A stretch of 43,008 nucleotides of DNA from a virus (IMGVR_UViG_3300031521_000136:1-43008), one strand, 5' to 3'; numbered from the stretch's first letter, positions 4,526 through 30,800 are shown. Notes: generated from the sequence alone by a model not told the origin. Translations and numbers: made by a program.

Positions 4526-4526
4526 T

Positions 4527-13840: not shown

Positions 13841-14593
13841 TTATTTATCATTCTTTTCATCATAGTATTTATACAGTGCTTTAGTTAGTCTATTCTTCTC
13901 CATTTCAGACAATAAGTTATACTTACGGAACTTACTCTTGAATTGATTCATTACGTCCTTAAAATCAGCATTAAAATCCAAATCTTCTATTGTTTCAGTA
14001 AATCTTGCCCATTGTTCATGTGGAAGTTTAAAATATAATTCCTGTGCTATTTTGTTTGTTTCTAATCCCCTTTCATCTACTTCTTTTCTATATTCATCAG
14101 TCTTTTTATTTCTTGAATACTTTCCCTTCGACCTAAAATAATCATAAGCATGTTGTAATTCATGTGCTAACACCTTTCTATATGTCATTGATAATGCATT
14201 TTTAAGAATATCATTAGGTGTTTTATATTTAACACGACATATTTGTAGATTTTTATTAAATTGTTCAAGTTTTATATTTACTACTATTGAACCCTTATCT
14301 TCATATTCATCTTCACCTTCTTCCATAAATACTGCAACATTTCTTTCACTGTCAATTTTACTAAATTCAATTACTAATTCAAATTCTGTGATAAATGGAA
14401 TAAGTATTTTATAATCACTTGGATTATATATCATATCAATTAAATTCTTACTTATATAATCATCTTCTTTTAGTTCTTTATAAAAAACAGAACTTCTTTC
14501 ACCAAAATAAGTAATAACTTGGTCAGCTAATAAATATATTTCATCTATTTCGTTATGTCCTTCATTAATGAACATATTAAAATCAGTTATCAT
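13841..14593 (-). CDS. HExxH metallopeptidase-like protein with capsid-targeting-type N-terminus
   Basis: 250 aa. The zinc motif is HELQHAYDYF (about residues 143-152), with a downstream EVDERGLET that could supply the third ligand, so a gluzincin-like peptidase is plausible. The N-terminus MITDFNMFINEG matches the T4 capsid-targeting sequence plus cleavage site (I-N-E|G at 9-12). If used, a prohead protease would trim the first 11 residues and leave the enzyme inside the head. A TATAAAAG promoter (14607-14614) lies 14 bases upstream, consistent with late expression. No signal peptide or membrane segment. Confidence 0.75.
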   Translation of the reverse strand: MITDFNMFINEGHNEIDEIYLLADQVITYFGERSSVFYKELKEDDYISKNLIDMIYNPSDYKILIPFITEFELVIEFSKIDSERNVAVFMEEGEDEYEDKGSIVVNIKLEQFNKNLQICRVKYKTPNDILKNALSMTYRKVLAHELQHAYDYFRSKGKYSRNKKTDEYRKEVDERGLETNKIAQELYFKLPHEQWARFTETIEDLDFNADFKDVMNQFKSKFRKYNLLSEMEKNRLTKALYKYYDEKNDK

Positions 14594-14606
14594 AGGAATA
14601 TTTTTT

Positions 14607-14614
14607 CTTTTATA
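14607..14614 (-). promoter_or_regulatory. T4-type late promoter candidate (TATAAAAG)
   Basis: Minus-strand TATATATAAAAG, 14 bases before the ATG at 14593. It resembles the T4 late consensus TATAAATA and the other late candidates in this window. Confidence 0.5.
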
Positions 14615-14619
14615 TATAA

Positions 14620-14649
14620 AAAAAAGACTATTGTTTAATAGTCTTTTTT
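14620..14649. terminator. Terminator after the CDF transporter gene
   Basis: A 13-bp stem (14620-14632 with 14637-14649, core AGACTATT) has a GTTT loop and A and T tracts on the two sides. It overlaps the last codons of the minus-strand gene 14635-15531. Confidence 0.85.
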
Positions 14650-15531
14650 GTTTTCTGATTTAATATGTTCTTCTGTATGTGGTTCCACATGTATATATAT
14701 TTCACTCCTTGGAATTATATCATGTAAATCTTGTTCTATCTTATCACATATCTTATGACCGTTGGATACTGATATACGTGGGTTTAAATGCAAGTCAAAT
14801 TTAATAAAGGTATCTGCACCTGCTGAACGTAATTTAAGGTCGTGATAACACATAATATCAATATTATTATCCAAATAGTTTTTAACTATATTTCTACTAT
14901 CTTTTGGTGCTTTATCTAATAAAACATCAATTGCTCTTTTACCTAAGTTATAAGATACACCTAAAACAACTAACGCAACCCCTAATGCTGCTATTGAATC
15001 TGCTAAGTACCAATTAAAGTTAGATAGAATTAATCCTGTTAAAACTACAAATGAACTTAATATATCAGTTGAAAAATGCAATGCATCAGCTTCTAATGCT
15101 TGACTATTCGTTTCCTTTGCTATCTTATGTAATTTCTTTGCACGATTATAATCTACTAAAATAGATGTTACAATAACAATATAACTCCATATACTTATTT
15201 CAATATGGGTATTCCCCGACATAATTCGAGATATAGCTTCATTTATAATCCATACACAAGTTATAAGTAATAAAACGGTTTCAATTAAAGCTGATAGATT
15301 TTCTATTTTACCATGTCCATAGTTATGTTCAGTATCTGCTGGTTTATCTGACACACGAACTGCAATATATGTTACAATAGCTGCAACCATATCTAAGGTA
15401 GAATGTAATGCTTCTGACAATATACCCAAACTACCAGTAACTAACCCAATAATCAATTTAAAAATAGTTAAAAATGCTGATGCAAAAACCGACATTAATG
15501 CAATACTTCTTTTTTCTTTGCTCTTATTCAT
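14635..15531 (-). CDS. Cation diffusion facilitator (CDF) family metal transporter
   Basis: 298 aa, normal CDF length. There are about six membrane segments between residues 10 and 205. The metal-site signatures are SEALHSTLDM in TM2 and ADALHFSTDI in TM5, with the HxxxD arrangement common in bacterial CDFs. HNYGHGKIE follows TM2, and the C-terminal cytoplasmic domain (about 208-290) ends HVEPHTEEH. The family exports Zn2+, Fe2+, Co2+ or Mn2+ in exchange for protons; the ion cannot be told from sequence. A complete transporter is unusual in a phage. It has its own host-type promoter (15555-15584) and terminator, like an independently acquired cassette. Confidence 0.92.
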   Translation of the reverse strand: MNKSKEKRSIALMSVFASAFLTIFKLIIGLVTGSLGILSEALHSTLDMVAAIVTYIAVRVSDKPADTEHNYGHGKIENLSALIETVLLLITCVWIINEAISRIMSGNTHIEISIWSYIVIVTSILVDYNRAKKLHKIAKETNSQALEADALHFSTDILSSFVVLTGLILSNFNWYLADSIAALGVALVVLGVSYNLGKRAIDVLLDKAPKDSRNIVKNYLDNNIDIMCYHDLKLRSAGADTFIKFDLHLNPRISVSNGHKICDKIEQDLHDIIPRSEIYIHVEPHTEEHIKSENKKDY

Positions 15532-15554
15532 ATTTTGGTTTTAAATTTAGAATA

Positions 15555-15584
15555 CAAAGATAATAATAAAAAATGAAACTACAA
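15555..15584 (-). promoter_or_regulatory. Bacteroidota-type promoter for the CDF transporter
   Basis: Minus-strand TTG (15582-15584) and TATCTTTG (15555-15562) are 19 bases apart, 24 bases before ATG 15531. It lies among genes that otherwise have late-type promoters. Confidence 0.8.
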
Positions 15585-15631
15585 AATAAAAGAAGAAATA
15601 TATTATAAATAAATAGTATATAAGTTATATA

Positions 15632-16558
15632 TCATGATCTTGCATCTTTTTTGTCAGTTTCTATTTGTGCTAAGAACATTTCTTGTTCAGATTTTCTTCT
15701 ATTATTCAATCCACCAAACTTTCCACTGTTTCTGGTAGATGGTATAAGTTGTGCAGCAGCGATAAAATCACCTGTTTTTAAAACATCTGTAAATTCACTA
15801 TTTCTGAAACCACTAACACCCATATTATATACCATAGAAACCATAGAATCATACATAGATTGTGTTATTTCCATGTCAGTTCCTTCTTGTTTCCATTGGT
15901 CAAACATTCTTTTAACACCATCTTCTGCTACTTTCAAGTCAGCTCTAAGTAATTCATCAGCTTTTTCTTCGGTAATATGTTGACCTATTTTAAATTTTGA
16001 TTTTTTTATTGGTTCAGCATGTCCATATCCTATTGTTACTTTACCATCACCTATACTATATCCTACTAATTTTAATTTTTCGTGTTGTTTAATAGAATCA
16101 ATTCCATTTTCAGAAATAGTAAGGTGTTGTGGGTCTTTTTCTTTATATACAATTGGTGCTTTTACATTAGGTTCTTTATGATGACTAAAAAAATCAAAGA
16201 ATTTAAATATTGATTTTAATGTTATATGTTCATCTTGTGCAACTTTTTCTATTTCCTTATCATTTATTACATTAGTTGCATTAATTTTTTCTATTGAAGT
16301 GAATCCCATTGTAGATGTTACATAAATTATAAATAATAATTTAATAATATTTTTCCTTCTTCCTAAGTCTTTTACAGATGTTAGTAAATTAAAAGTTTTA
16401 TTGAATATGTTTTTTAATTGTTCTTTATTAAAGTTTTTTAAATTACTTATATTAAATTCTTCATTTAAACTAATATCAGTATTAAAGTCAATACTATTTA
16501 AATTAAATTCTTCAAATAAAAATCTTTCTACTATATAATCTTCAAAATTCTTAACCAT
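15632..16558 (-). CDS. GH24 (T4-type) lysozyme with N-terminal extension and capsid-targeting-type start
   Basis: 308 aa, far longer than T4 lysozyme (164 aa). The C-terminal domain (about 148-300) carries catalytic-position E160 in KQHEKLKL, then GDGKVTIGYGHA (170-181) with D171 and T175, and later SMVYNMG and NNRRKSEQEMFL, typical of GH24. The position equivalent to T4 Asp20 is Ile169 and an Asp sits two residues later. The first 145 residues hold one hydrophobic segment (about 72-86). The start MVKNFEDYIVE|R matches the T4 capsid-targeting pattern at the same positions (I9-x-E11) as the metallopeptidase. It cleaves peptidoglycan; context suggests a virion-associated entry lysozyme rather than, or as well as, an endolysin. 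Confidence 0.85.
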   Translation of the reverse strand: MVKNFEDYIVERFLFEEFNLNSIDFNTDISLNEEFNISNLKNFNKEQLKNIFNKTFNLLTSVKDLGRRKNIIKLLFIIYVTSTMGFTSIEKINATNVINDKEIEKVAQDEHITLKSIFKFFDFFSHHKEPNVKAPIVYKEKDPQHLTISENGIDSIKQHEKLKLVGYSIGDGKVTIGYGHAEPIKKSKFKIGQHITEEKADELLRADLKVAEDGVKRMFDQWKQEGTDMEITQSMYDSMVSMVYNMGVSGFRNSEFTDVLKTGDFIAAAQLIPSTRNSGKFGGLNNRRKSEQEMFLAQIETDKKDARS

Positions 16559-16563
16559 TTTAA

Positions 16564-17328
16564 TTAATCTCTTTTTTTACATCTATATTTAAAATAGAAG
16601 AAGTCGTTATCAACTATTTTGAAAACATTTTCATTACTGTGTATTATTAAAAATGGTTGATTGTCTACATCTAAATTAAATCCTTTAATAGTTATTATTT
16701 TTCCCTTTTTAAATATAGTATTATTACCCAATGCATCTTTTACTTTTAATTCATCTGCTAAAACAACATAATCACCATTATCAGGAACAAACCAATTAAA
16801 TAAAATTTTATATAAATAATTACTTAATTTTAATTTATATTCTACATCTATATAACCGAATCTTGGATCTGTAAATAGATCAGTTGATAATTTTGTTTTA
16901 TTTAAACCATTATAATTACGATAAACCCCAAAAAATTCTTCTTCCATAAATTCAAATGATATAAATACATCAACATTCAATGTATTATTAATGAAAATTC
17001 TTAATATTTTTAAATTTTGGTATTCTTCTAAGTCTTCTAAGAAGTAATCTAATTTATGACCAATTATTGATGTACTACCTTGTGCGTATAGGTCTTTCAT
17101 AACCCTATTTAAATCTTGCACAACTTGACTCATTCTTGCATAACTATCAAGATAAGGACTACTACCATCTGAATAAATAGACATTTGTGGATCTTGTGCA
17201 AATCCAAATCCAGCACCAAGGGGCATTTGACCCATTTGCATATCCGCAAATTCAGTACTTTCTTTTAATATTTCTTCGGGTAAGTTATCCACTATAAAGC
17301 TATACTTATTATATTTCAATATATTCAT
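16564..17328 (-). CDS. Putative virion protein, 254 aa
   Basis: No family recognised. The N-terminus (MNILKYNKYSFIVDNLPEEILKES) fits the targeting pattern loosely, with candidate cleavage sites after LPE or LKE (16-18, 21-23). A Met/Gly/Gln-rich low-complexity stretch follows (about 29-50). The C-terminal ~70 residues look beta-rich and SH3-like (KGKIITIKGF). It is 5 bases upstream of the lysozyme gene on the same strand and has a late-type promoter at 17347-17354, so the two form a late unit. Confidence 0.65.
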   Translation of the reverse strand: MNILKYNKYSFIVDNLPEEILKESTEFADMQMGQMPLGAGFGFAQDPQMSIYSDGSSPYLDSYARMSQVVQDLNRVMKDLYAQGSTSIIGHKLDYFLEDLEEYQNLKILRIFINNTLNVDVFISFEFMEEEFFGVYRNYNGLNKTKLSTDLFTDPRFGYIDVEYKLKLSNYLYKILFNWFVPDNGDYVVLADELKVKDALGNNTIFKKGKIITIKGFNLDVDNQPFLIIHSNENVFKIVDNDFFYFKYRCKKRD

Positions 17329-17346
17329 AGTTTGTACTATAATTTT

Positions 17347-17354
17347 ATTTTATA
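17347..17354 (-). promoter_or_regulatory. T4-type late promoter candidate (TATAAAAT)
   Basis: Minus-strand TATATATAAAAT, 19 bases before the ATG at 17328. It forms the left half of a divergent promoter region that is repeated at 27363-27407. Confidence 0.55.
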
Positions 17355-17369
17355 TATAAAATTTGCATC

Positions 17370-17388
17370 ATTATATTTTTATATATAA
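17370..17388 (+). repeat. 19-bp element shared with 27386-27404
   Basis: ATTATATTTTTATATATAA is identical at 27386-27404. In both places it is preceded by TTGCA and, 20-30 bases to the left, by a leftward TATATATAAA. Both copies lie between divergent virion-type genes. It includes a rightward promoter-like TATATATAA. Confidence 0.6.
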
Positions 17389-17421
17389 TCTATTATTTAA
17401 AATATAAAAAATAATAATATT

Positions 17422-17736
17422 ATGGAAAAAAATAACAACACAGTTAATAAAAAAACTATTAAAAAATCAACTATTGAACCACAAGAAATCATTGTTGAAA
17501 AAGAACCAATATTAGAAACACCTATAAGTGAAATAGTTAAAGAATTACCTAAACTTAAAATATACGAATTATATAAACAAATTATAATTGATGGTAATTC
17601 ATTTAAAGTTTATTTAAGGGATGTAATAATTTATGATACTAAAAATAAGGAAAAATACCCTATTTTTGAAGAAGAATATTTTATTGTAGGTGGAAAAAAA
17701 TATATATACAAAGGTACAAGAATAGAAATATATTAA
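17422..17736 (+). CDS. Hypothetical protein, 104 aa
   Basis: The first ~50 residues are Lys/Glu/Thr-rich and probably disordered (MEKNNNTVNKKTIKKSTIEP); the rest is beta-rich with many tyrosines. No family recognised and no capsid-targeting start. It is first in the rightward virion-type operon, behind the divergent late promoter region. Confidence 0.6.
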   Translation: MEKNNNTVNKKTIKKSTIEPQEIIVEKEPILETPISEIVKELPKLKIYELYKQIIIDGNSFKVYLRDVIIYDTKNKEKYPIFEEEYFIVGGKKYIYKGTRIEIY

Positions 17737-17754
17737 AAAATATTATAATAAAAT

Positions 17755-20034
17755 ATGAATAACTTAAATAATTTAAATAAATACTCAGAATTTATAAAAT
17801 ATAAAAGAATTAATGAAGCTGATGGTTTTAAAACAAGTGCGGGTTCTTATGCTGGTCCAAGTAGTGGTGGTATAGTTGATTCAAATACAATGTTTGCTAA
17901 CGTACATGGTAATTTAGCAGGTGCTGAATATACATTAGTTGGTTCTGCTGTTATTAAACTTTTCGGATTTATCAAAAGAAAAGGTATGGAAGTATATATG
18001 AAAACTATTTTAAAACCAAGATTAGGTAAAATATTAATGAATGGTGTTTTAAGATATACTATTAAAGCTAATCTTAGAGGACCAGGTGTAAAAGAATGGT
18101 TTGTTATTAGAAAAGAAGAAGCGGAAGAAGAAGTCGCATTTGATAATATGGTTTCATTTAGTAATGGAACTGAAAAAGGTTTAAGTCAACTTATAGTTGG
18201 TGCAACTGTCACCACTCAAAAAACAACACCCGAATTAGTTGATGGTAAATATATTTGCCCTGCAAATAATGCAACTTTTGAAGTTGTGAATAAAATAATC
18301 ACAACTGTAAGCGGTGGTGGTGTGTTACCACAACCTAATGTTCAACCACAAGATGAAACACAAGATGAAACAGAAGGTGAAACAGAAGATGTTCAAATAG
18401 AAGATGTAAGCGATGAAGAAATTAAAAAGAAAAGAGATGAATTTGAACAACAAATAATAGATGGTACTATTGATTTAGAACCAGATCCATCAATTAAAGG
18501 TGATATTGAATATCTTAATACAGTACTTGAAAAAATCAAAAAAGAATGTGATACAAGTGGTTTAAGTAAAGAAAACGAAAAAATATTAATAGATTGGCAA
18601 CGAAATTTAAAACGTGATATGAAAACACTTAAAATTGAAGGTGTAGATGTAATTGAAGAATTATTAAGAAATAAACAAGTTGAAGATAAATTAAAATTAC
18701 AGATTGATAAACAACAATACATGGTTGATATTAAAAGTTTACTTGAAATGAATGATAAAATAGATTTATTTTTAACAACGTATAAACCAGTAACTACAAC
18801 AGGAAAAACTGTTGGTGTAGTAGCAGATAGTATTCATAGTTCATATGATGAATTTTTACTTGAATTAAAAGCTGCTGTTGTAGTAGGTGATAAAAAATTA
18901 ACTACCCATAAACCAGTTGTTAGTAGATTAGGTGATGAATTAGTTGAATTAGCTAAAAAAGGTGAAGCAATTGATTTAAATGATCCCGAATTTTACAAAC
19001 AATTTGAAAGTGATGAAGTTAGAAACGCAGTTACTAAAGAAGTATTAACAGATAAACCAAGTTTAGTAAAATTACAACTCACTGCGGAAAATATTATTGC
19101 AGGTGGTGTTGCTACACCAGGTACAAGTGGTGGTGCAAATACAATGTCAGATAAAAATAGATGGAAATTAGATAATTATTGGAAACGAACTGTTGAAGAT
19201 GTTATGGCATTATATGGTAAATTTATGGTAACTGACCCCGTAAATCCATATAAACTTAAAGGTGAAGAATCACCCGCAAAAATAGAAGAATTTAAAAAAC
19301 AAAATAATGCTATGGGTGGTCAAGGTAAAGCATTAGCTAATACATTACTAATGAAAACAGCAAGTGATAATAAACTATTTAACGATAGTGCAACTGTTGT
19401 AAGTGATTTAAATAAAATAGATAAAAATGAATATTGTATCTTAAATATGTCTTTTCAACAAGATAAAAATGATACGGGAAATGATTATTATGTATTAAGA
19501 AGAGTCACAGCAGCAAGAGATACGTTAAAAATATTTAGAATTCTTGGTAAAATTGATTTATCTAAAATAAACGCTGAATTCAAAGAAACAGATTTTTCAT
19601 CTTTAATAAAGAAGGAATATAGTAAATTTTTATTACCTAAAATGGAAGGTAGTTTAGATGCAAATAAAAATGGACTTAGAGGTATTTATATTATCCAAGA
19701 TAAACAAGGTAACTTTAGTACAGGTGAAGCATCAAACAAAGTATCGTTAATGTATTTATTTTCAAAATTTGAAAAAATAGATTGGACTGATAAAAGTAGT
19801 TACTATTTTAAAATAAAAGTATTCAAAGGTGATGGATATGAAAGAATATTAGGTGATAAATTTCAAGAACATTTCGAAGAAGAAAAACAATATTATAAAG
19901 TAAACCTTTCTATTGATAGTACACTTAAATATAAAATAACTTCTATTGATTCATTTGGTAAATTTAATAACTATGATATTTTACAAGTAAAAGATATGTT
20001 TGAAACATTCAAACAATATTTAGGACAAAAATAA
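17755..20034 (+). CDS. Large putative internal virion protein, 759 aa
   Basis: No enzymatic domain recognised. The start MNNLNNLNKYSEFIKYKRINE|A ends in a textbook I-N-E|A prohead cleavage site (19-22). Residues about 40-75 contain a weakly hydrophobic helical stretch. An acidic Q/E/T repeat (QDETQDETEGETED) occurs near 202-216, followed by long charged helices. The C-terminal ~200 residues are mixed alpha/beta. Size, targeting-type start and position in the late operon suggest an internal head or ejected protein; the biochemical function is unknown. Confidence 0.65.
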   Translation: MNNLNNLNKYSEFIKYKRINEADGFKTSAGSYAGPSSGGIVDSNTMFANVHGNLAGAEYTLVGSAVIKLFGFIKRKGMEVYMKTILKPRLGKILMNGVLRYTIKANLRGPGVKEWFVIRKEEAEEEVAFDNMVSFSNGTEKGLSQLIVGATVTTQKTTPELVDGKYICPANNATFEVVNKIITTVSGGGVLPQPNVQPQDETQDETEGETEDVQIEDVSDEEIKKKRDEFEQQIIDGTIDLEPDPSIKGDIEYLNTVLEKIKKECDTSGLSKENEKILIDWQRNLKRDMKTLKIEGVDVIEELLRNKQVEDKLKLQIDKQQYMVDIKSLLEMNDKIDLFLTTYKPVTTTGKTVGVVADSIHSSYDEFLLELKAAVVVGDKKLTTHKPVVSRLGDELVELAKKGEAIDLNDPEFYKQFESDEVRNAVTKEVLTDKPSLVKLQLTAENIIAGGVATPGTSGGANTMSDKNRWKLDNYWKRTVEDVMALYGKFMVTDPVNPYKLKGEESPAKIEEFKKQNNAMGGQGKALANTLLMKTASDNKLFNDSATVVSDLNKIDKNEYCILNMSFQQDKNDTGNDYYVLRRVTAARDTLKIFRILGKIDLSKINAEFKETDFSSLIKKEYSKFLLPKMEGSLDANKNGLRGIYIIQDKQGNFSTGEASNKVSLMYLFSKFEKIDWTDKSSYYFKIKVFKGDGYERILGDKFQEHFEEEKQYYKVNLSIDSTLKYKITSIDSFGKFNNYDILQVKDMFETFKQYLGQK

Positions 20035-20045
20035 ACAATAAAAAT

Positions 20046-21176
20046 ATGTTAAAAGAATATAATAGCTTTTTAAATAATGATTTATTAAATGAAGGTGTTA
20101 CAACATCAGCAGAAATAAAAAAATCTATGAGTAATATTGTAAATAATGCTACAAAATCATTAAAAAATATTAAATATAAATATTATAATGAATATACTAA
20201 TGATAAACAAGAAATTGAAGACAAGGGTATTTATTATGCTGTTGTTAGATTTGAACCAAGTGTATTAAGTGAAGAAACAAAAGCAATAGAAAATTTCATT
20301 TTTTGGGTTAAAGTTCAAATTTTATCAAAGTCAACAAAAGAAATTGTTGATATTAATAAAATTCCAATAACTATTTGTCAATATAAAATAGTAGGATATG
20401 ATGATGCAATGAGTCAATATTTTGATTTATTAAATAAAAATATATCTGATATTAAATTATTTAAAAATAAAAAAGATTTTTTTGCAAGTAAAATAAATGA
20501 AATTCTTGGTGATAGAGATATAAATGGTTTTTATTTATTTAAATCAAAACAAAATATCACTACTACTATAAGCGATAAATTAAGAATTGATAAATCTGGT
20601 TATAAAGGTGAAATTATTTCTGAAAAAGGTAGTGAAAAACTTACTGGTGTTAGGTCAAAAAAACAACAATTAGGATTATATAAAAATTCACTCGGTAATG
20701 TCATTCTTGTGTTAAATTATAAAGATGATGATGTGAATTATTTAAATTTATCTGATAATAAGTTAGGTGTTATTCAACATGATGAAATGACACAAAAATT
20801 TAGAGCAATAAAGGATAAAGAAAATAAAATATTATCATTATCACCATACATAGAAAGTAAATTATCTGAAAATGATAGTCAACCAGATTTAACAAAGAAA
20901 ATAAACACGTTGAAATTTTATATAGAAACAGTTAGAATAGCAAACGATAATATTCAAGATGAATTACTCAAAAAAAGTTTAAAAGTATTATTACAAAATA
21001 TTTTTATTAAATATGATGATTTAATAAAAAATATAGTATTAAATAAAACAAGTGATATTAAAAGTAACAAAATACTAAAACAAGCAACTGCTGATATTAT
21101 TAATTATATTAGAATTTTCAATTCAGATAAAATAATTGTAAATATGCTAACTGAATTAAATAAAGTCTTATCTTAA
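20046..21176 (+). CDS. Putative internal virion protein, 376 aa
   Basis: No domain recognised. The N-terminus MLKEYNSFLNNDLLNE|G has the K-x-Y-x-x-F pattern and an L-N-E|G cleavage site (14-17). The protein is lysine- and asparagine-rich, with helical N- and C-terminal thirds and a beta-rich middle. It follows the 759-aa protein by 11 bases and shares its strand and presumed late transcript. Confidence 0.65.
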   Translation: MLKEYNSFLNNDLLNEGVTTSAEIKKSMSNIVNNATKSLKNIKYKYYNEYTNDKQEIEDKGIYYAVVRFEPSVLSEETKAIENFIFWVKVQILSKSTKEIVDINKIPITICQYKIVGYDDAMSQYFDLLNKNISDIKLFKNKKDFFASKINEILGDRDINGFYLFKSKQNITTTISDKLRIDKSGYKGEIISEKGSEKLTGVRSKKQQLGLYKNSLGNVILVLNYKDDDVNYLNLSDNKLGVIQHDEMTQKFRAIKDKENKILSLSPYIESKLSENDSQPDLTKKINTLKFYIETVRIANDNIQDELLKKSLKVLLQNIFIKYDDLIKNIVLNKTSDIKSNKILKQATADIINYIRIFNSDKIIVNMLTELNKVLS

Positions 21177-21213
21177 TAATGAAAATTATTATTAAAAATT
21201 AAATATATAAATA

Positions 21214-21564
21214 ATGAAACATATAAAACAATATTATCTATTTTGTGAAGGTAATGAGGAACAAGGTGTTATGGATAATATGGCACTTGATATTGATTTT
21301 AAGCAGATTGAAGATACTAATACACAGATTGAAAACACAAAAGAAAATATAGAAAATAAGAAAAAAGAATTAGAAGCTAACTTAGAAATGCTTCAAAACC
21401 TTCAAGTACAAGGATTCACCGAAGATAATAAAAAAATATTAGAGGCAAAGAAAAAATCTATAAAAACTTCAATGGATAATATTACAGCAGAAATAAAAAC
21501 ACTTGAAGATACTATTAAAATATTCAAAGATAGAATATTACTCTTGAAAAAACAAAAACAATAA
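21214..21564 (+). CDS. Coiled-coil protein, 116 aa
   Basis: Residues 25-115 are a nearly continuous heptad-like helix rich in Glu, Lys and Ile (IENTKENIENKKKELEANLE). The start MKHIKQYYLFCE|G is a weak match to the targeting sequence, with Phe rather than Ile/Leu at the third position before the cut. It probably oligomerises. The next gene starts 6 bases later. Confidence 0.6.
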   Translation: MKHIKQYYLFCEGNEEQGVMDNMALDIDFKQIEDTNTQIENTKENIENKKKELEANLEMLQNLQVQGFTEDNKKILEAKKKSIKTSMDNITAEIKTLEDTIKIFKDRILLLKKQKQ

Positions 21565-21570
21565 TAACAC

Positions 21571-23316
21571 ATGCCTTCTAAAATAGAAAAAGATTTTATT
21601 GATAATTTACAAAATTTTACTGATTCATTGGAAAATTTAGTTGAATTACTAAAGAAACAACATGAAAAAGGTGGTGATGCAGTGAATAAAATGTCTGCTT
21701 CTATGGATGGTGAAAGATTAAAAACCATTTCAGAAGAAATAAAAGTGTTATCCGAAACAACTGGTAGAATTGATAGTAGAACAAAAGAAATTTTATCAGA
21801 AGTAAAGCAAGCACGTAAAGCAAAAGAAGGTGGTGTTTTTCAACAAACATCTGATAAAGGGAACACTAAAAAAGTAGTTGATGGTGTTAAACTTATTCTT
21901 CTAATCGCAGTTGGTGTTTTAGCTATTGGCATGGCATTTAAAATAATTGGTAAGGTTGATCCATTATCAGTTTTAGCACTTAGTATAGCAATTTATACTA
22001 TTGCAATTGCATTTGAAAAGTTAAGTAATATAAAAGGTATGACAACTAAAAAAGCAGTAGCAGTTAGTGGTCTTATGGTTATAATGGCAATGGCTATAAT
22101 GCTTTCAAGTCAAATTTTAAGATGGACTGCACCAATTAGTTTGATTACAGCATTTAGTATTTTAGCTGTTTCTGCAACATTAGGTGTCGCTGTATTCCTA
22201 TTATTTAAAGCAGTTGAACATCTTGATTTATCAAAACCAAAAGTATTAAAGAATATGCTATTGCTACCTATAATACTACCTATAATAGCATCAGCTATTG
22301 TTTTATCAAGTTTCATACTTTCATTAACACAACCAATAACATTAGAACAAGGCTTAACAGCATTAGCAATTGGTGCAATATTAGGAATAACAGCATATCT
22401 GTTATTAAAAGGTCTTAAAGGTCAAGATTTATCAAATCCAAAGACATTGAAAAACATATTATTACTACCATTGATATTACCAATGATAGCAGCATCAATA
22501 GCATTATCAAGTTTACTTTTAAAATTAGTACAACCAATATCATTACAACAAGGACTTAGTGCATTAGCAATTGGTGGTATATTAGGACTTACAACATTTT
22601 TATTATTAAATGGTCTTAAAGGACAGAATTTATCAGATTCAAAAATGTTAAAAAATATTTTATTATTACCATTAATAATACCTATTATTATGGGTGCTAT
22701 TGTAATATCAAGTATGATATTACAAGCATTTTCACCAATAAAAAATCCGACTGATGTTCTAATTACGGGAAGTATTATAGCATTAATGACAGCAGGATTT
22801 GGTGTATTAGCATGGCAAATTTCTAAATTAGGGATAAGCACAACTGATATATTAAAAGCGGGTCTAACCATTGTATTAGTAAGTGCTGCATTAGTAGCAT
22901 CTTCATATATTTTAGCATCATTTAAACCATTAACAATGAATTCATCTACATTGATGGGTAATTCATTAGCAATGGGTGTAGCTATATTAGCATTTTTACC
23001 AGTCGTTTTTGTAATAAGTAAATTTAATATAAGTGCAAGTTCTATATTAAAAGCAGGTTTAGCAATAGTATTAATTGCAACAGCTATCACAGCATCAAGT
23101 TGGATTTTATCATTAGGAAAATATGATAAATACCCATCGTTAGAATGGGCTGGTGGGGCAGGTTTAAGTTTATTGGCATTTGGTTTAGCAGCATTTGCAA
23201 TATCATTTATAGCAGCTAATCCATTGTTTTATGCGGGTATTGCAATTATTCCGTTAATCGCTGCTTCTATCGTTGCTACAAGTTATATACTTTCAGCAGG
23301 TAAATATACAGGTTGA
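21571..23316 (+). CDS. Hydrophobic repeat protein, N-terminal part up to an in-frame TGA
   Basis: 581 aa before TGA 23314-23316; the same frame stays open for another 361 codons. Residues 1-90 are charged and coiled-coil-like. From about 105 on there are many membrane-type hydrophobic segments. A ~66-residue unit occurs three times (about 215-410), with the pattern LS(N/D)xKxLKNILLLPLILP followed by Q-G-L-xALAIG-x-ILG. Later units carry GKYxxxPxxxW. The stop falls inside one of these (KYTG-stop-PTVDW) where sister units have Gly or Tyr, so a GGA-to-TGA change or stop readthrough is likely. Topology recalls tape-measure or membrane-spanning injection proteins, but I recognise no family. Confidence 0.7.
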   Translation: MPSKIEKDFIDNLQNFTDSLENLVELLKKQHEKGGDAVNKMSASMDGERLKTISEEIKVLSETTGRIDSRTKEILSEVKQARKAKEGGVFQQTSDKGNTKKVVDGVKLILLIAVGVLAIGMAFKIIGKVDPLSVLALSIAIYTIAIAFEKLSNIKGMTTKKAVAVSGLMVIMAMAIMLSSQILRWTAPISLITAFSILAVSATLGVAVFLLFKAVEHLDLSKPKVLKNMLLLPIILPIIASAIVLSSFILSLTQPITLEQGLTALAIGAILGITAYLLLKGLKGQDLSNPKTLKNILLLPLILPMIAASIALSSLLLKLVQPISLQQGLSALAIGGILGLTTFLLLNGLKGQNLSDSKMLKNILLLPLIIPIIMGAIVISSMILQAFSPIKNPTDVLITGSIIALMTAGFGVLAWQISKLGISTTDILKAGLTIVLVSAALVASSYILASFKPLTMNSSTLMGNSLAMGVAILAFLPVVFVISKFNISASSILKAGLAIVLIATAITASSWILSLGKYDKYPSLEWAGGAGLSLLAFGLAAFAISFIAANPLFYAGIAIIPLIAASIVATSYILSAGKYTG

Positions 23317-24402
23317 CCAACAGTCGATTGGGCGAAAGGTGTAGCTTTAACATTGTTAGCATTCGTACCAGCTATGATTATTGCGGGTGTTGGATTTATT
23401 GCAATTGGGTTAGGTGTAGCAAGTATATTATTAGTTGCTAATTCAATAGTAGATTCTGCAAATATATTATCAAAAGGTACATATACAGGTGGTCCTTCAA
23501 CTGAATGGGTAGCAGGTGTTGCTTCAATTATGTCAGCATTCGCACCAATTATGATTATTGCTGGTTTAGGGTTTGTACCAATTGGATTTGGTGTTCTTAG
23601 TATGAAATTAGTTGCTAATTCAATAGTAGATTCTGCAAATATACTTTCATCAGGTAAATATTCTGGTGGACCAACAAAGGAATGGGCAGAAGGTGTTGGA
23701 ACAGCATTATCAATATTTTCCAATGTATTAAAAAATTCATCGGGGTTAAATATAAGTGGAAATGACATTTCTAATTTTATTTCTAATGTAGCAAAGGGTA
23801 TGAAATTATTGAATGATGCTTTTGTCGGTTCTAATTTCACTGTCTTCCCTAATAAAGATTGGATTACATCATTAGATTCACTTTCTAAAGTAATCGTATA
23901 TATTAGTAAAAATATAGATGAAAAGAAAATAGATTCTTTAAATAATTTTGCGGAAGCTGTTAAAAATATTTCATACAGTTTTGCTGATTTAAGTCAATCG
24001 GGTATTGATAAACTATCAAATTTAAGTGCAAACATTAATTTCTTATCAGTTGTTGATACAGGAAGATTAGATGTAGTTATTAAATCTTTAGATACAAATA
24101 AAGGTATGCTACAAAATGCAGTTAATTCAATTTCAAATCAAGGAAATCAACAACAAACAGGTATATTTGATTCTATTAAATCAGTTTTTGATTCATTTTT
24201 ACCAAAAACTGATTCGAATGACCAAAGTAAAGTTTCATCAAGTAAAGGAATAGGTAAATCAGAACCATTAAGAGTGGATCACAAAGCAATAACAGAAAGA
24301 ATGGACCAAATGCTTAAAAAGATGGACCAAATGATTGAAGTTATGGGGGGTACACCAATGAAAACACCTGATTTATCAAAAGCTGAATCACCAGTAAGAT
24401 AA
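23317..24402 (+). pseudogene. In-frame continuation of the hydrophobic repeat protein after TGA
   Basis: 361 codons directly continue 21571-23316 in the same frame. There is no ATG until 23374 and no separate translation signal. It begins inside a repeat unit (PTVDWAKGV) and continues with two more units (KGTYTGGPSTEW, SGKYSGGPTKEW), then a helical region and a C-terminal tail ending with a Met/Asp-rich coiled stretch (KRMDQ-type repeats) before TAA. It is either the product of stop readthrough, or the second half of a gene broken by one substitution or a sequence error. I mark it as pseudogene only because standard reading stops upstream. Confidence 0.6.
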
Positions 24403-24418
24403 TATTTTTAACCAAAAT

Positions 24419-24450
24419 AAAAAACATCTAAGAAATTAGATGTTTTTTTT
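24419..24450 (+). terminator. Terminator of the 17.4-24.4 kb operon
   Basis: An 11-bp stem AAAACATCTAA/TTAGATGTTTT (24421-24431 with 24436-24446) with a GAAA loop and T run, 19 bases after the TAA at 24402. Confidence 0.85.
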
Positions 24451-24482
24451 ATTTTATTTCAAACATTTTATAAATTATGATA

Positions 24483-24490
24483 TATAAGTA
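24483..24490 (+). promoter_or_regulatory. Late promoter candidate (TATAAGTA)
   Basis: TATATAAGTA lies 10 bases before ATG 24500 and 19 bases before the alternative ATG 24509. The usual spacing of 17-19 at the other candidates favours the second start. Confidence 0.4.
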
Positions 24491-24499
24491 GTAAAAATA

Positions 24500-24994
24500 A
24501 TGCTTATTATGTTTAGAAATATTGGTTGGTATTTGTTTTACAGAAGAACAATACATAAAAATAGAGAATTATTATATAATGACCACAATGTTAAAATAGA
24601 TTGGGTAAATAGATTATATAAAACATATACATTATCAGATAGTGAATTAGAAGACATAAAAACATATGGTAATGTCTTTCTCAATAATCTAATTCAAAAA
24701 GATAATCAAAAATTAGAAAAAACCTTATTTAATTTAGGTATTCAAGAATTAGTTGCATTAATCGAATTAGAACAGTTAAATGATAAACAAATTGGTGTTG
24801 CTTTTCGTTTCAAGTATTTCGATACTGCTAAAATAGCAAGTATTTTATTATGGTCAACAATAACAATTTTAACTACGTTGACTTTTTATTTAGTAAATTA
24901 CGAAATTAGGTCAATATATTTTGGACTTATTGCATCTTTAGTAATATATCTTATAACAAGAATATTTAAATTAAATAGAATAGATAATAAATAA
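24500..24994 (+). CDS. Membrane protein with two C-terminal transmembrane segments, 164 aa
   Basis: A soluble N-terminal two-thirds (helical, charged) is followed by two hydrophobic segments at about 113-132 and 136-153 and a short basic tail. No family recognised. The longest frame starts at 24500; ATG 24509 (MFRNIGWYLF) fits the promoter spacing better and would remove three residues. It follows a terminator, so it begins a new unit that may include 25016 and 25463. Confidence 0.65.
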   Translation: MLIMFRNIGWYLFYRRTIHKNRELLYNDHNVKIDWVNRLYKTYTLSDSELEDIKTYGNVFLNNLIQKDNQKLEKTLFNLGIQELVALIELEQLNDKQIGVAFRFKYFDTAKIASILLWSTITILTTLTFYLVNYEIRSIYFGLIASLVIYLITRIFKLNRIDNK

Positions 24995-25015
24995 CAATTA
25001 AAACAATTAAAAATT

Positions 25016-25444
25016 ATGTTAAAAACAGAACAATTTTACGAATTAGATGAAGATGTAATTGATTTCTTCAAAGTACTTGAAAAGGAATTTGTATTTCCAC
25101 TTAATGTTAAATACAAATTTCAAGCAAATAATAAATTAAAACAAGTTATTGAAATTAAAAAATTAGCAGATAACCTTGCAGTATTACTAAATGCAGAAGT
25201 ATTAGTTACAGTAAATGAAGATTTCTATAATAAAATGGATGAAGAAATAAACAAAATCTTATTTGAACAAGAAATTGACAAAATCCATATGAATTTAGAA
25301 AAAGGTACTATTCAAATTAAACAACCTGGTTTAAAAACAACAACAGGTTTGGTTAAGAAATTTTCATATGAAAAGGTAGAACGTGCATATGAAACACAAA
25401 GATTATTGGTTGAATCAAAAAATGTTGATGAAACCGCACAATAA
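25016..25444 (+). CDS. Hypothetical phage protein, 142 aa
   Basis: Starts MLKTEQFYELDEDVIDFF. The second half reads NEDFYNKMDEEINKILFEQE...NLEKGTIQIKQPGLKTTTGLV, which from memory resembles small conserved proteins of Bacteroidota phages, some annotated as putative phage metallopeptidase; no HExxH motif is visible here, so I do not assign that function. It has no capsid-targeting start. It precedes 25463-26263 by 18 bases. Confidence 0.6.
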   Translation: MLKTEQFYELDEDVIDFFKVLEKEFVFPLNVKYKFQANNKLKQVIEIKKLADNLAVLLNAEVLVTVNEDFYNKMDEEINKILFEQEIDKIHMNLEKGTIQIKQPGLKTTTGLVKKFSYEKVERAYETQRLLVESKNVDETAQ

Positions 25445-25462
25445 AAAATAAATATTAAAAAA

Positions 25463-26263
25463 ATGTCAGAAAAAGAAGTATTTCAAGCTGCGTTAGAAAA
25501 AGCAGGTGAATTAGAAACAATGGTATTCACAGAAAAAGGGATTGATATTAATGAATATTATTCTGCATTGGAACAAATTGCTATTAGAAACAATAGCTTA
25601 AAAAACGATGAAGCAGAAAATGTTATTAACGACCAATCAGGTAAATTTATAAATGAAGAATTTGTTACAGGATTAGAAGAAAGAAGATTGAAAGTAGAAA
25701 ATTTTATTCGTACTTATGACCCAAATAAACCAATCGTGAAAGATTTGGAATTAGCGGATGTTGATAAAATTTATGCTATTTCTAATTATTTATTGAATTC
25801 TTATATTCAATATGTTAATGAAATGAAGTTTAATTTCACCTTATCAATTAATGAATTTAAATTTGTAGATAAAGCATTAACACGTGAAATTAGTTATAAT
25901 GCGGATGAAGTATTTAATTATGCTGAATTTATGAATAACTTATGGTATGGTGTTCAAGAACAAGCAGAAGAAAATAAATCACTTGGTGAATTTACTGTTG
26001 TAGTTGATATCAAAAAGATTTTAATTTTACATCACCTTATTAAAGGTTATACTGTAAAAGGTCGTACAAATGATTATGATTTATTCAAAAACGTGTTGTA
26101 TAAAATCGCACAATTTAATAAATTGTTTAATGCATATAGTATTGTAATTGAACGTATTAAAGCTGATAGGGAAATTTGGGGTGCTGCATTAGATGTGGTA
26201 GCAAATGAAAAAGAAGCTGAACGAATGGGTGCATTACCCGTTGATGAAATAGAAGTTAAATAA
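25463..26263 (+). CDS. Hypothetical protein, 266 aa
   Basis: A helical, acidic soluble protein (starts MSEKEVFQAALEKAGELETM). No family recognised. It is last in the unit 24500-26263 and ends at the strong terminator 26263-26292. Its codon use and length suggest a well-expressed structural or assembly protein, but there is no direct evidence. Confidence 0.65.
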   Translation: MSEKEVFQAALEKAGELETMVFTEKGIDINEYYSALEQIAIRNNSLKNDEAENVINDQSGKFINEEFVTGLEERRLKVENFIRTYDPNKPIVKDLELADVDKIYAISNYLLNSYIQYVNEMKFNFTLSINEFKFVDKALTREISYNADEVFNYAEFMNNLWYGVQEQAEENKSLGEFTVVVDIKKILILHHLIKGYTVKGRTNDYDLFKNVLYKIAQFNKLFNAYSIVIERIKADREIWGAALDVVANEKEAERMGALPVDEIEVK

Positions 26264-26292
26264 AAAAAGGTGGTTTAAATACCACCTTTTTT
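26263..26292. terminator. Bidirectional terminator between convergent units
   Basis: A 12-bp stem AAAAAAGGTGGT/ACCACCTTTTTT (26263-26274 with 26281-26292) with a 6-base loop; T tracts on both strands. Confidence 0.9.
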
Positions 26293-26295
26293 GTT

Positions 26296-26796
26296 TTATA
26301 TATTTATCTTTTCTTTTTTTATAAATTTAATCTTTTTTTCTTTATCTTTTATTGACCATGCTGATATAAAATAACTTTTATTTTTACATGTAATTTCAGT
26401 CTGTTCAAAATTTTCACCCCATCCATCTGAACATTGACCTTCTATATAATCCATAATTTCTACAATATCATCTTCTGATGGTTCACCTTTAATTCTTACT
26501 TCAATATTAAATGTATTATTTTTTACATTATAAATAGTTGCAGTAATACTTTTTATTCTAAATGAATTTTCAATATCACTATCATCAATATAATCTACTA
26601 ATGAATTTTCATTAAAATCATTTATAAGTTCATTCATCATACAATCTACATCTTTTGTATCAAAATCTTCTAATTCGTAAATATTTTGATTATCATCGTG
26701 TATAAATAATGGATTTTCATATACAATAATATATTCTGATTGTTCATCATAATTTATAAACTTATTAAATTCTAATATTAATTTATTTTTCATCAT
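26296..26796 (-). CDS. Hypothetical protein, 166 aa
   Basis: An acidic protein without a recognised domain. The start MMKNKLILEFNKFINYDE has the F-x-K-F-I-N core of the targeting sequence but no clean (I/L)-x-E cut site, so it is a weak candidate. It overlaps the upstream gene 26783-27346 by 14 bases and shares its late-type promoter. Confidence 0.6.
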   Translation of the reverse strand: MMKNKLILEFNKFINYDEQSEYIIVYENPLFIHDDNQNIYELEDFDTKDVDCMMNELINDFNENSLVDYIDDSDIENSFRIKSITATIYNVKNNTFNIEVRIKGEPSEDDIVEIMDYIEGQCSDGWGENFEQTEITCKNKSYFISAWSIKDKEKKIKFIKKEKINI

Positions 26797-27346
26797 CCTT
26801 TTTAAATTTTTTAAGAACTTTAGCTAAATCATATTCTTTATATTCATGTTCATTTTCTTTATTAATAATGTCAAGGACTAATACTTGATTTTTAATGCTG
26901 TTAATAACACCTTCTACCCCATCTATCTTTATAGTTTTACCAATAGTTAATATATCTATTGGATATCTATCAGCTTTATTAGGGTGATTGTTAAACATTG
27001 GTCTTAACATATCATCTTTTGTTCCTTTAATCCACCTATCATCATCTAAATCAATACCACTACCTTCTCTACTTGTATACATATCTTCCAATGATTTAAC
27101 TTTATTCGATTCTTTCAAACAAAAACTTTCATATGTATCAACATGTCTTTTACCATCCCAAGGATTATTCATGTAATAACAATTTGGTTCTTTATCTTCT
27201 TTAGTTTTCTGATCTCTTCTTACCTTATCACCAATGTCACCACCTTGTTTTTTAATATCATTATATAATTTTTCCCATCTTTTTTTTGAATCTTGTCTAA
27301 GCATTCCACTTTCATTAATTTCATCCGAATTATTAATATTTTTCAT
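26783..27346 (-). CDS. Hypothetical protein, 187 aa, with possible prohead cleavage site
   Basis: Highly charged. Residues 1-13 (MKNINNSDEINE|S) end in I-N-E|S, compatible with prohead-protease cleavage, though the F/Y positions of the targeting pattern are missing. The C-terminal ~65 residues look like a small beta-barrel (TIGKTIKIDGVEGVINSI), reminiscent of SH3-like folds. First gene of a two-gene leftward unit with a TATAAATA promoter 17 bases upstream. Confidence 0.6.
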   Translation of the reverse strand: MKNINNSDEINESGMLRQDSKKRWEKLYNDIKKQGGDIGDKVRRDQKTKEDKEPNCYYMNNPWDGKRHVDTYESFCLKESNKVKSLEDMYTSREGSGIDLDDDRWIKGTKDDMLRPMFNNHPNKADRYPIDILTIGKTIKIDGVEGVINSIKNQVLVLDIINKENEHEYKEYDLAKVLKKFKKDDEK

Positions 27347-27362
27347 TATTGTAACATTTTTT

Positions 27363-27370
27363 TATTTATA
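27363..27370 (-). promoter_or_regulatory. T4-type late promoter (TATAAATA), leftward
   Basis: An exact TATAAATA on the minus strand, 17 bases before ATG 27346. It is paired with a rightward copy at 27400-27407. Confidence 0.65.
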
Positions 27371-27385
27371 TATAAATTATTGCAA

Positions 27386-27404
27386 ATTATATTTTTATAT
27401 ATAA
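27386..27404 (+). repeat. 19-bp element shared with 17370-17388
   Basis: Identical to 17370-17388 and in the same arrangement: leftward TATATATAAA, TTGCA, then this element, between divergent virion-type genes. Confidence 0.6.
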
Positions 27405-27407
27405 ATA
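27400..27407 (+). promoter_or_regulatory. T4-type late promoter (TATAAATA), rightward
   Basis: An exact TATAAATA, 17 bases before ATG 27424, the same spacing as at 38816-38823 and, on the other strand, 27363-27370. Confidence 0.65.
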
Positions 27408-27423
27408 AAAGAAAAATTTTAAC

Positions 27424-27687
27424 ATGAGTAAGATTAAAAAATTTGATGAATATTTTGATATTGATAACATACAAGAAGGTGCAATTGCTGACCCCGTTGT
27501 AAGACCAACAGTTAAACCAGATATTAAAAAAGCACCAGGAAAAGCATCACCACTTAGAAAAGATAGACCATCTGTTTTACCTGGTCCAAATGCTATGACA
27601 GATATTGAATTAGCAAATAAATTCTTAGGTTTATCTAAGAATATTAAAGTTGTACAAGACTTATTAAGAAAAAAATATAAGAAATAA
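27424..27687 (+). CDS. Small putative internal virion protein, 87 aa
   Basis: Starts MSKIKKFDEYFDIDNIQE|G: lysines, then F-x-x-Y-F, and an I-Q-E|G cut site (16-19) as in T4 capsid-targeting sequences. The remainder is Lys/Pro-rich and probably disordered, with a short C-terminal helix ending in KKKYKK, suggestive of nucleic-acid contact. It lies 1 base before the next gene. No family recognised. Confidence 0.65.
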   Translation: MSKIKKFDEYFDIDNIQEGAIADPVVRPTVKPDIKKAPGKASPLRKDRPSVLPGPNAMTDIELANKFLGLSKNIKVVQDLLRKKYKK

Positions 27688-27688
27688 A

Positions 27689-29098
27689 ATGGAAATAAAG
27701 AAATTCGGTAAATTATTCGAAGCAGATATAGAAACTAATTTAGGTGTTCCACCCGCATATTTAGAAGGAATAGATAAACTTGGTAAAGAAACGTTTGGTA
27801 CAACAGGTCCAAATGGTAGAGAAATGCAAAGAGCAGGATTCTTGTTTCATAATATGATGCGTATTCAATACGGTAATGAAGCAAAATTAACTGAAATCGG
27901 TAAACAAATTATATTAGATGAATATGGTGATATATTAGATGGTGTTAAATTAGATATAAAAATTGTTAGACCTGGTGATAATGACCAAATGCAAATGGTC
28001 GATAAATTATTGAAAGAAAAGACAAACGATAAGAATAAAGAAGAAAAACCAACTTTTAAGTCACCCGCATCACCTGATTTTGGTCAAAAAGTTGTAGCAC
28101 CTGATGAAGAAATAGATAAAAGTAAAGTATTAAATAATATAATGCAAGGTGAAGCTCAAAATGTTCAAAACTTAATGTATTATAAAAAGGATGCAATAGA
28201 TAAAATTGATCCAAATTATTTAGAATATTTGGTTGAATTTTTTAATATAAATAAAAAGTTTGATTGGAAAGAAGGTATTGATATGGAAGAACCAATGAAG
28301 GAACACCCTGAAATGTCAAATGTATCTGATACTGATTATGAAGAAAATGAAGAAGGTGAAACAGTTCCTGTTATCAAAGTAAGAGCATTAGACTTACAAA
28401 TGTTAATACACGAAACAATTAAAGGTGTTTATAGTTTAATCATGGCACATTCAATTCCAGATGATCCCGAATTAGCACAAGCTATTAAAGATGCAACTGC
28501 ATCATTTGCAGATGAAAACCAAGATGTTAAATTTGGTCCTTATATCGCAGCAGATGTTAGAGATTATGTAATGGGATTTCTTGATAGAAAATATTCAGGG
28601 CAAACAAAAAGTATTAAAAATATAAAAGAATTTGTTTATGGTAAAATGGCTGGTTTAAAAGCTGATGTATTTATTGATTTAATTTATTTTATATTAAATA
28701 AAGAAATGGTTAAAGCAGATTTTATTATGGTTAAAAATAAAATAGTAGAACAAATTCTTGAAGATATAAATGGTGAAGAAGATTACGAAGATAGCTATAA
28801 AGGCGATGGTGATTTTGTACAAAAATATGATGAATTTGATGATGAAGGTTATGCACCACAAGGTCAAGAAGAAGAACCAGAATCATGGAAACAAAAACCA
28901 CAAGAAAAATCTGAAATAGTAAACGGACCAGTAGAAGATATTAAGAAAATAAAATCTATGAGTAGTTCAGAAGTATATACATATTTAAAAAGTAAAACTT
29001 CACCTTCACAACGTATGAAAATAATTGACCAAGCGTTAGATGATGAAGATTATGCAACTGTTAAAATTGTAAGCGATTTCAATAATAACAATAAATAA
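27689..29098 (+). CDS. Putative internal virion protein, 469 aa
   Basis: The start MEIKKFGKLFE|A gives a compact targeting sequence with an L-F-E|A cut (9-12). The central domain (about 170-365) is helical, with strings such as MLIHETIKGVYSLIMAHS and FGPYIAADVRDYVMGF. The flanks are acidic and disordered (YEENEEGETV; an E/D/Q-rich stretch near 360-410). I recognise no enzyme motif; the acidic tails resemble proteins packed in phage heads. It is in one late operon with 27424 and 29115. Confidence 0.65.
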   Translation: MEIKKFGKLFEADIETNLGVPPAYLEGIDKLGKETFGTTGPNGREMQRAGFLFHNMMRIQYGNEAKLTEIGKQIILDEYGDILDGVKLDIKIVRPGDNDQMQMVDKLLKEKTNDKNKEEKPTFKSPASPDFGQKVVAPDEEIDKSKVLNNIMQGEAQNVQNLMYYKKDAIDKIDPNYLEYLVEFFNINKKFDWKEGIDMEEPMKEHPEMSNVSDTDYEENEEGETVPVIKVRALDLQMLIHETIKGVYSLIMAHSIPDDPELAQAIKDATASFADENQDVKFGPYIAADVRDYVMGFLDRKYSGQTKSIKNIKEFVYGKMAGLKADVFIDLIYFILNKEMVKADFIMVKNKIVEQILEDINGEEDYEDSYKGDGDFVQKYDEFDDEGYAPQGQEEEPESWKQKPQEKSEIVNGPVEDIKKIKSMSSSEVYTYLKSKTSPSQRMKIIDQALDDEDYATVKIVSDFNNNNK

Positions 29099-29114
29099 AA
29101 TAAAATAAAATATT

Positions 29115-29516
29115 ATGATTAAGAAATTTAATGAATATATAATTAATGAAGAAATAAACCCACTTGTAGGAATTGATAAAACAAAAATGTTTTATGATGG
29201 TATGAAAAAAATTACAGAATATGATGAATCTGAATATGAACAAGGTGATGAACCATCAAGAGCAGATTTAGCAGATGAAGTTGGTGATTTAATGGATAAA
29301 ATGTTAATGACAACTGATGATTTACAACAAGTTGTTGATAAATATCCAAATGATATAGATGTAGAATATTATGTTAAAGGTCAGTTAGAATATGAACTTA
29401 AACATAGACAAGAAGAACAATCTCTTGAAGATATATTGAAAAAACATGGGGTAAATGACATAAATGGTCTTAAAAAGGACTTGAAAAAAATAGGTTATGG
29501 TATAACATTAACATAA
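29115..29516 (+). CDS. Small putative internal virion protein, 133 aa
   Basis: Starts MIKKFNEYIINE|E, the closest match in the window to the T4 targeting peptide (M-K-x-Y-x-E-F-I-x-E). The rest is acidic and helical (ADLADEVGDLMDKMLMTTDDL). No family recognised. It ends just before a cluster of hairpins at 29526-29592. Confidence 0.65.
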   Translation: MIKKFNEYIINEEINPLVGIDKTKMFYDGMKKITEYDESEYEQGDEPSRADLADEVGDLMDKMLMTTDDLQQVVDKYPNDIDVEYYVKGQLEYELKHRQEEQSLEDILKKHGVNDINGLKKDLKKIGYGITLT

Positions 29517-30307: not shown

Positions 30308-30308
30308 A

Positions 30309-30473: not shown

Positions 30474-30513
30474 AGACTTATTTCTTTTTATAGTATATAT
30501 TAATTATTAAAAG

Positions 30514-30585: not shown

Positions 30586-30609
30586 ATAAAATATAAAAAT
30601 AATTATTAT

Positions 30610-30798: not shown

Positions 30799-30800
30799 AT

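Follow-up and report, generated by a model that had tools for sequence, protein, structure and literature searches.

A capsid-targeting-like N-terminal tag on many unrelated proteins of huge phages, and a scaffold whose repeats resemble it

Introduction

The viral genome fragment IMGVR_UViG_3300031521_000136:1-43008, an IMG/VR record of 43,008 bases used whole and hereafter called the window, carries at least nine genes between 13.8 and 29.5 kb whose products begin with a similar short peptide ending in Glu. In T4, the capsid-targeting sequence (CTS) MKTYQEFIAE is carried by IPI, IPII, IPIII, and Alt, the protease is gp21, and some of the internal proteins are ejected into the host along with the DNA. 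The initial annotation of the window had read its N-termini as tags of this kind, in a set larger than the four T4 cases. The locus raises the question of whether these peptides direct proteins into the phage head, and what they would bind there.

The DNA polymerase of the window (30801-32309) shares 54.5% identity with its counterpart in the 735-kb huge phages LR756501 and LR756503, and 40-42% with those of the 634-642 kb phages; homologues of several more window genes exist in LR756501. By sequence similarity, the polymerase and these further genes relate the window to the 634-735 kb genomes of the huge-phage (Mahaphage) clade, to which the largest of these phages were assigned, with Bacteroidetes as their predicted hosts (PMC7162821). 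Near-identity DNA searches of phages and plasmids with the window gave no match.

A shared N-terminal tag in the window and in its relatives

The tag follows the motif [FY]xx[FY]-[ILV]-x-E↓, where the arrow marks the predicted cut. A gapped weight matrix was trained on the N-termini of LR756501 only, so that the window is held out, and applied with a hit threshold of 8 bits; composition-preserving shuffles and protein-interior segments were used as controls. Open reading frames (ORFs) of the fetched genomes were called by a simple script, so some start codons are wrong.

The coordinates and N-termini of all nine ORFs were as annotated. Six of them score 8 bits or above, against an expectation of 0.2 for shuffled N-termini and likewise 0.2 for protein interiors, and the other three join the set through tagged homologues. 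All six strong genes lie within the 13.8-29.5 kb stretch, which holds 19 of the 61 genes (P = 5e-4), and their mature parts are separate families, in line with the claim that the proteins are otherwise unrelated. The tags belong with short N-terminal propeptides (about 7-20 residues) that end in I/L-x-E; in the window they measure 10-23 residues, and certain ones have 1-5 additional residues separating the targeting and cleavage halves.

Loose regular expressions over-called (129 of 1016 ORFs) and were replaced by a tight core together with the weight matrix. In LR756501, 57 proteins have the core [FY]xx[FY][ILV]xE within residues 1-22, compared with 3.2 in shuffled sequences (maximum 8), and its Glu falls most often at residues 10-14. 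At 8 bits or more, the matrix retrieves 83 proteins in this 735-kb training genome (~2 expected), a set even larger than the annotation had proposed. Among genomes outside the training, it retrieves 50 in LR756502 (642 kb), 35 in LR756504 (636 kb), 24 in LR756500 (462 kb), and 9 and 8 in two incomplete contigs; under this matrix, Cyanophage S-T4, Lak, and PAU give counts close to background. Three strong candidates occur in a cultured relative, Chryseobacterium phage MA9V-1 (MKNFFSFINE↓A, MKTFFNFVNE↓S, and MKTFTCFINE↓A). A short form of the tag, ending in FE↓A in the window gene at 27689, is enriched in LR756502, LR756504, and PAU; LR756501 shows no such enrichment (2 vs 1.1 expected). Grouped by their mature parts, 218 tagged proteins give 184 families, of which 171 have a single member; thus, the tag is borne by otherwise unrelated proteins. 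In the family comparison, the counts of untagged homologues may be inflated by start-codon choice.

The same matrix, which is blind to T4, ranked three genes with an internal-virion-protein annotation, ipIII, ipII, and ipI, second to fourth among ~250 T4 ORFs (rank 1 is a 54-residue ORF, MKTFKEFIKEDM). Moreover, the conserved tag positions coincide with those that govern targeting (residues 4 and 7) and processing (residues 8 and 10) in T4 IPIII (PMC9026906).

A scaffold made of tag-like repeats

The initial annotation had called for a gp21-like protease elsewhere in the genome. None was found on the 43-kb fragment itself, while the search of relatives and comparator phages gave an S77 (gp21-type) match in 12/12. 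Phages of the clade have the S77 domain at the N-terminal end of a polypeptide of ~630-850 residues, with the scaffold as its C-terminal part, and in LR756501 the gene sits between the portal and major capsid protein (MCP) genes, as T4 gp21 and gp22 likewise do.

The scaffold part consists of ~8-13 tandem 14-residue repeats with the consensus I-x-Y-S-E-Y-I-A-E-N-L-D-K-N. An IMG/VR scan for S77-scaffold relatives gave 370 loci, of which 80, including several near-duplicates, were kept; all the complete scaffold ORFs (77/77) contain 10-15 cores and 7-12 exact 14-residue steps. When the N-terminal matrix was slid across proteome interiors, the scaffold was the sole protein to be hit repeatedly in each of four genomes (6 in LR756501, 5 in LR756502, 5 in LR756504, and 4 in a further relative, G001). 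AlphaFold2 predicts the repeat region as a single continuous helix, in five models that disagree widely in confidence. The resemblance between scaffold repeats and tag suggests that the binding partner of the CTS is the scaffold.

Proposed loading of the phage head

We consider it very likely that the N-termini in the window are capsid-targeting propeptides of the T4 type, docked on the scaffold core and cut by the S77 protease, with the cargo kept in the head. The T4-type reading first put forward for this locus is favoured by the residue spacing, the blind recovery of ipIII, ipII, and ipI, the S77 matches, and a scaffold built from the same motif. On the sequence evidence, packaging and cleavage of the tagged proteins are strongly indicated, while ejection of the cargo into the host is plausible by analogy. 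The window's own phage would have the same S77-scaffold head genes as its relatives.

Each tag would be a single copy of the scaffold repeat unit ([FY]xx[FY]-[ILV]-x-E) and would dock, during head assembly, on the core made by the long helical array of 14-residue repeats, which would fill the prohead with tens of different cargo proteins. The S77 protease, as the N-terminal domain of the scaffold polypeptide, would cut after Glu in the scaffold repeats, in the MCP, and in the tags, turning the scaffold into small peptides and leaving the mature cargo in the head. If the tag is indeed one scaffold repeat, the cargo would co-assemble with the core and be freed by the same cut that shreds the scaffold. 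Part of the cargo at least would be ejected with the DNA and act in the host at once, as T4 IPI and Alt suggest, with possible roles in counter-defence, RNA repair, translation, and nucleotide metabolism, or as peptidases and lysozyme. Docking, cleavage, and virion presence of the tagged proteins are here deduced rather than observed.

A more far-reaching proposal, which we favour with less assurance, is that of scaffold mimicry: the scaffold would be a helical rod of ~8-13 CTS repeats, a protein would be loaded via one N-terminal repeat, and genomes of 460-735 kb would pack ~25 to >80 proteins for immediate delivery. Enzymes in this cargo list include a tRNA synthetase, polyphosphate kinase, RNA ligase, and Acb1-like anti-CBASS enzymes. 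Tags in such numbers suggest that the particles of the largest known phages contain a big set of packed proteins, enzymes among them. If this is true, the head cargo of these phages could be read from sequence alone, and every tagged protein would be a candidate virion protein and a possible first-minute effector. The many tags would also be a natural collection of N-terminal packaging signals, testable by simple reporter fusions. Tag-based loading in huge phages was not described in the literature searched, a scope that left out most subscription literature, and capsid targeting is not mentioned in the 735-kb phage paper or in a 2026 jumbo-phage review.

Evidence weighed against other explanations

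The explanation that competes best, although we judge it clearly the less likely one, is that packaging and cleavage yield mainly head-core or structural parts, which stay in the head or shape it, with few or no injected effectors among the tagged proteins. It is coherent with the absence of a recognised function for most tagged proteins, with the influence of T4 IPIII on head assembly (PMC9026906), and with some tagged mini-proteins that bear the N-arm of the mature MCP. On the other hand, several tagged proteins of known type are not structural. In LR756501, they include glutamyl-tRNA synthetase (GltX, E=1e-90), polyphosphate kinase 2 (PPK2), deoxyribose-phosphate aldolase (DeoC), a methyltransferase, and a radical-SAM protein; in LR756502 and LR756504, they include PPK2, T4-type RNA ligase 1, an aminotransferase, and two 2H phosphoesterases with Acb1 matches just over the cut-off. 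Among the tagged proteins of the window, a lysozyme and the metallopeptidase are the recognisable cargo. The fast turnover of the set, with its 171 singletons, is also unlike that of structural genes. GltX is tagged in LR756501 (MKKMELKNLTEFEQFRLLMKE↓SVSGTVRCRFAPSPTG), has a tag-like form in LR756504, and is untagged in LR756502, where it starts with MNIVTRIAPSPTG; judged from these N-termini, the tag appears to be modular.

A second possibility, which we hold to be improbable, is that the motif is a prohead-protease site without a targeting role, the proteins entering the head by other means. Indeed, the cleavage half [ILMV]xE is common to the tags, the MCP, and the protease sites. This half, without the aromatic pair, is seen at the MCP sites inferred through the gp23 alignment (HQMNE↓N, HSLNE↓N, HQINE↓N) and at the N-terminal sites of the protease itself, whereas the tags and the scaffold repeats keep the pair; hence, targeting and cleavage look separable, as in T4, where the aromatic-pair positions control targeting rather than cutting.

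Still less credit can be given to the idea that the tag has nothing to do with the head and is another sorting signal, for example for controlled turnover or for localisation in the infected cell. The tag is the same as that of T4 internal proteins and of the scaffold repeats, and the annotation of the distant phage PAU points the same way. PAU has its own tag, MK[TS][LI]xx[LI][FY]E↓, on 20/289 ORFs; among the carriers are the annotated scaffolding protein and four of the five proteins annotated as "internal capsid protein", the latter with a hypergeometric P=8e-5. Lastly, chance, amino-acid composition, or expansion of a single gene family, suggested by the high Lys, Asn, Phe, and Glu content of the proteomes and the frequent matches of loose patterns, is refuted at genome scale, since at 8 bits shuffles and interior segments give ~2-3% as many hits as LR756501 itself, the Glu is found most often at residues 10-14, and the mature parts are unrelated.

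Several points weigh against the capsid-targeting reading. No virion proteomics of this clade exists. Neither an S77 protease nor a head gene was found on the window's 43-kb contig, so that the protease of its phage is deduced from relatives, and the S77 matches in LR756501, LR756502, LR756504, LR745206, and G002 are below the Pfam cut-off, although their position and architecture fit S77. T4 gp22 has no such repeat; thus, the repeat is not a general T4 feature, and T4 offers no known precedent for docking on scaffold repeats. In the more distant LR756500, tagged proteins are present while the scaffold repeats are merely degenerate. Finally, the basis of the PAU "internal capsid protein" annotation could not be checked.

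Comparison with other phage systems

The logic is the same as that of T4 capsid targeting; the differences lie in the far greater scale and in a scaffold that consists of tag copies. The tags share with the T4 CTS the N-terminal position, the length, the aromatic pair three residues apart, the I/L-x-E↓ end, the presence on unrelated proteins, and, in the relatives searched, a match to the gp21 protease family. T4 differs in having a handful of tagged proteins, against ~25 to >80 per huge-phage genome. Moreover, the huge phages, unlike T4, have many enzymes among the tagged proteins, a protease fused to the scaffold, and tandem tag copies in that scaffold.

Sphingomonas phage PAU similarly has a short N-terminal tag with a terminal Glu on internal capsid proteins and scaffold, but the tag is another one, the protease stands alone, and no 14-residue repeat array was seen. 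Phages phiKZ and SPN3US have many head proteins, a gp21-related protease cleaving after Glu, and ejected cargo (PMC5694885; PMC13282480), whereas their propeptides are mostly far longer (>100 residues in several SPN3US proteins) and have no common short tag. The long propeptides of the phiKZ-type inner body, often >100 residues, are not seen here, the tags being of 10-23 residues. In phage P1, an N-terminal signal likewise brings DarB into the head (PMC9024508), but the Dar proteins have no consensus found so far, the signal exceeds 9 residues, and a separate scaffold is seemingly lacking.

Tagged genes of the window

On the minus strand, the gene at 13841-14593 codes for a metallopeptidase-like protein of 250 residues (HELQHAYD) with the tag MITDFNMFINE↓G (14561-14593; 13.5 bits). 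A search of viral contigs with this protein retrieved 18 loci, including one almost identical to the window. In an alignment of the window protein with 16 distinct homologues (17 sequences, 20-37% identity), the sole invariant columns are E11, which is the Glu before the predicted cut, HELQHAYD, Y187, and E193. The tags of the homologues vary (MKRLIKHLLRE↓D, MIKSFKIFE↓S, MKIKFIIE↓G), as expected where tags are phage-specific on one cargo; forms such as the first and third suggest that tag families other than that of T4 may be common in large phages. In the AlphaFold2 model, residues 1-8 are disordered and the remainder is well folded. A PDB fold search with this model gave no match at E<=0.001, a viral structure library returned unnamed phage proteins only, and an M91 identity, based on a Pfam match below the cut-off, was not used.

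The gene at 15632-16558 (minus strand) codes for 308 residues with a T4-type lysozyme domain (PF00959, E=7e-23) and scores 10.6 bits. Its tag is MVKNFEDYIVE↓R (16526-16558) or, alternatively, one of 16 residues ending in RFLFE↓E, and the N-termini of its homologues vary ahead of the conserved domain. Next to it, a 254-residue protein without assigned function (16564-17328, minus strand) starts with MNILKYNKYSFIVDNLPEEILKE↓S (17260-17328) and scores 2.7 bits alone; it has tagged homologues in LR756504, G002, and LR756501, and the tags seen among its homologues are MKNVLNFEQFVNE↓N, MKFIKKYDDFEKLTE↓T, and MITKFNNYLKE↓S (TTG start, 13.7 bits).

Two plus-strand genes follow, neither with a homologue among the genomes compared: one for 759 residues (17755-20034) with the tag MNNLNNLNKYSEFIKYKRINE↓A at 17755-17817 (9.9 bits), and one for 376 residues (20046-21176) with MLKEYNSFLNNDLLNE↓G at 20046-20093 (13.6 bits). 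A MavL identity for the latter, resting on a Pfam match below the cut-off, was not used.

The 187-residue protein at 26783-27346 (minus strand; tag MKNINNSDEINE↓S at 27311-27346) scores 2.6 bits alone, and its LR756501 homologue has the N-terminus MITKFNKYDKVFE↓S. On the plus strand, an 87-residue protein (27424-27687) has MSKIKKFDEYFDIDNIQE↓G at 27424-27477 (9.4 bits), and a 469-residue protein (27689-29098) has the short tag MEIKKFGKLFE↓A at 27689-27721, which the long-form matrix misses (-0.8 bits) and the short-form pattern finds; N-termini of its homologues are MKNFSKFLE↓E and MTKIKRFSEMNE↓S, and a search of viral contigs found no relatives. The best score of the window, 18.4 bits, belongs to the 133-residue protein at 29115-29516 (plus strand), with MIKKFNEYIINE↓E at 29115-29150.

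Possible further members are 26296-26796 (minus strand; MMKNKLILEFNKFINYDE..., 4.7 bits), which has the core FNKFINY and lacks the Glu at the cut, and 21214-21564 (plus strand; MKHIKQYYLFCEGNEEQG..., 2.2 bits).

Other observations

Upstream of tagged LR756501 genes, ATATATAG is enriched (22/85 vs 64/889, p=7e-7), which raises the idea of a late promoter. In the window, TATATA[AT]A precedes 5/9 tagged genes and 7/52 others, numbers too small and a sequence too AT-rich to be relied on. The sequence TATATATAG occurs 48 times in all 735 kb of LR756501 and lies <=120 bases upstream of 36 genes, including 11 tagged genes and large tail-like ORFs; from these positions, it is a candidate late promoter of this phage.

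The peptide DPYGEE[NDE]W is present in 107 copies in 92 LR756501 proteins and in none of the other genomes compared. It lies in the last 10-13 residues in 39 cases and directly after the N-terminal tag in 22, and its codons vary; it looks as if selection acts on the peptide. A second S77 paralogue of LR756501 (11314-11850, minus strand; 178 residues, no scaffold part) has the C-terminus DPYGEENWSE. In the same genome, a 669-residue ORF (84154-86163, minus strand) has a tag-like KKYKGFLNE↓N in mid-protein, after a phosphoribosyltransferase-like part, and is possibly a fusion or has a mis-called start.

Scattered small genes encode differing fragments of the MCP: 5778-6341 (minus strand) in the window, 145891, 276342, 542326, 552409, 565330, and 730457 in LR756501, 80294 in LR756502, and 156397 in G002. 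In three of them, from different phages, a tag precedes the N-arm of the mature MCP.

Elsewhere in the window, four related ORFs in tandem (1518-5673, minus strand) resemble C5-cytosine DNA methyltransferases (MNVLSLFDG...). Two plus-strand ORFs at 21571-24402 both match a single 1691-residue LR756501 ORF (residues 1-577 and 678-840), and represent a long hydrophobic protein, split or frameshifted. At 29567-32309, the family B DNA polymerase ORF ends at ~500 residues (a split polymerase), and near it lies a putative endonuclease ORF (29567-30307) with many relatives within the clade.
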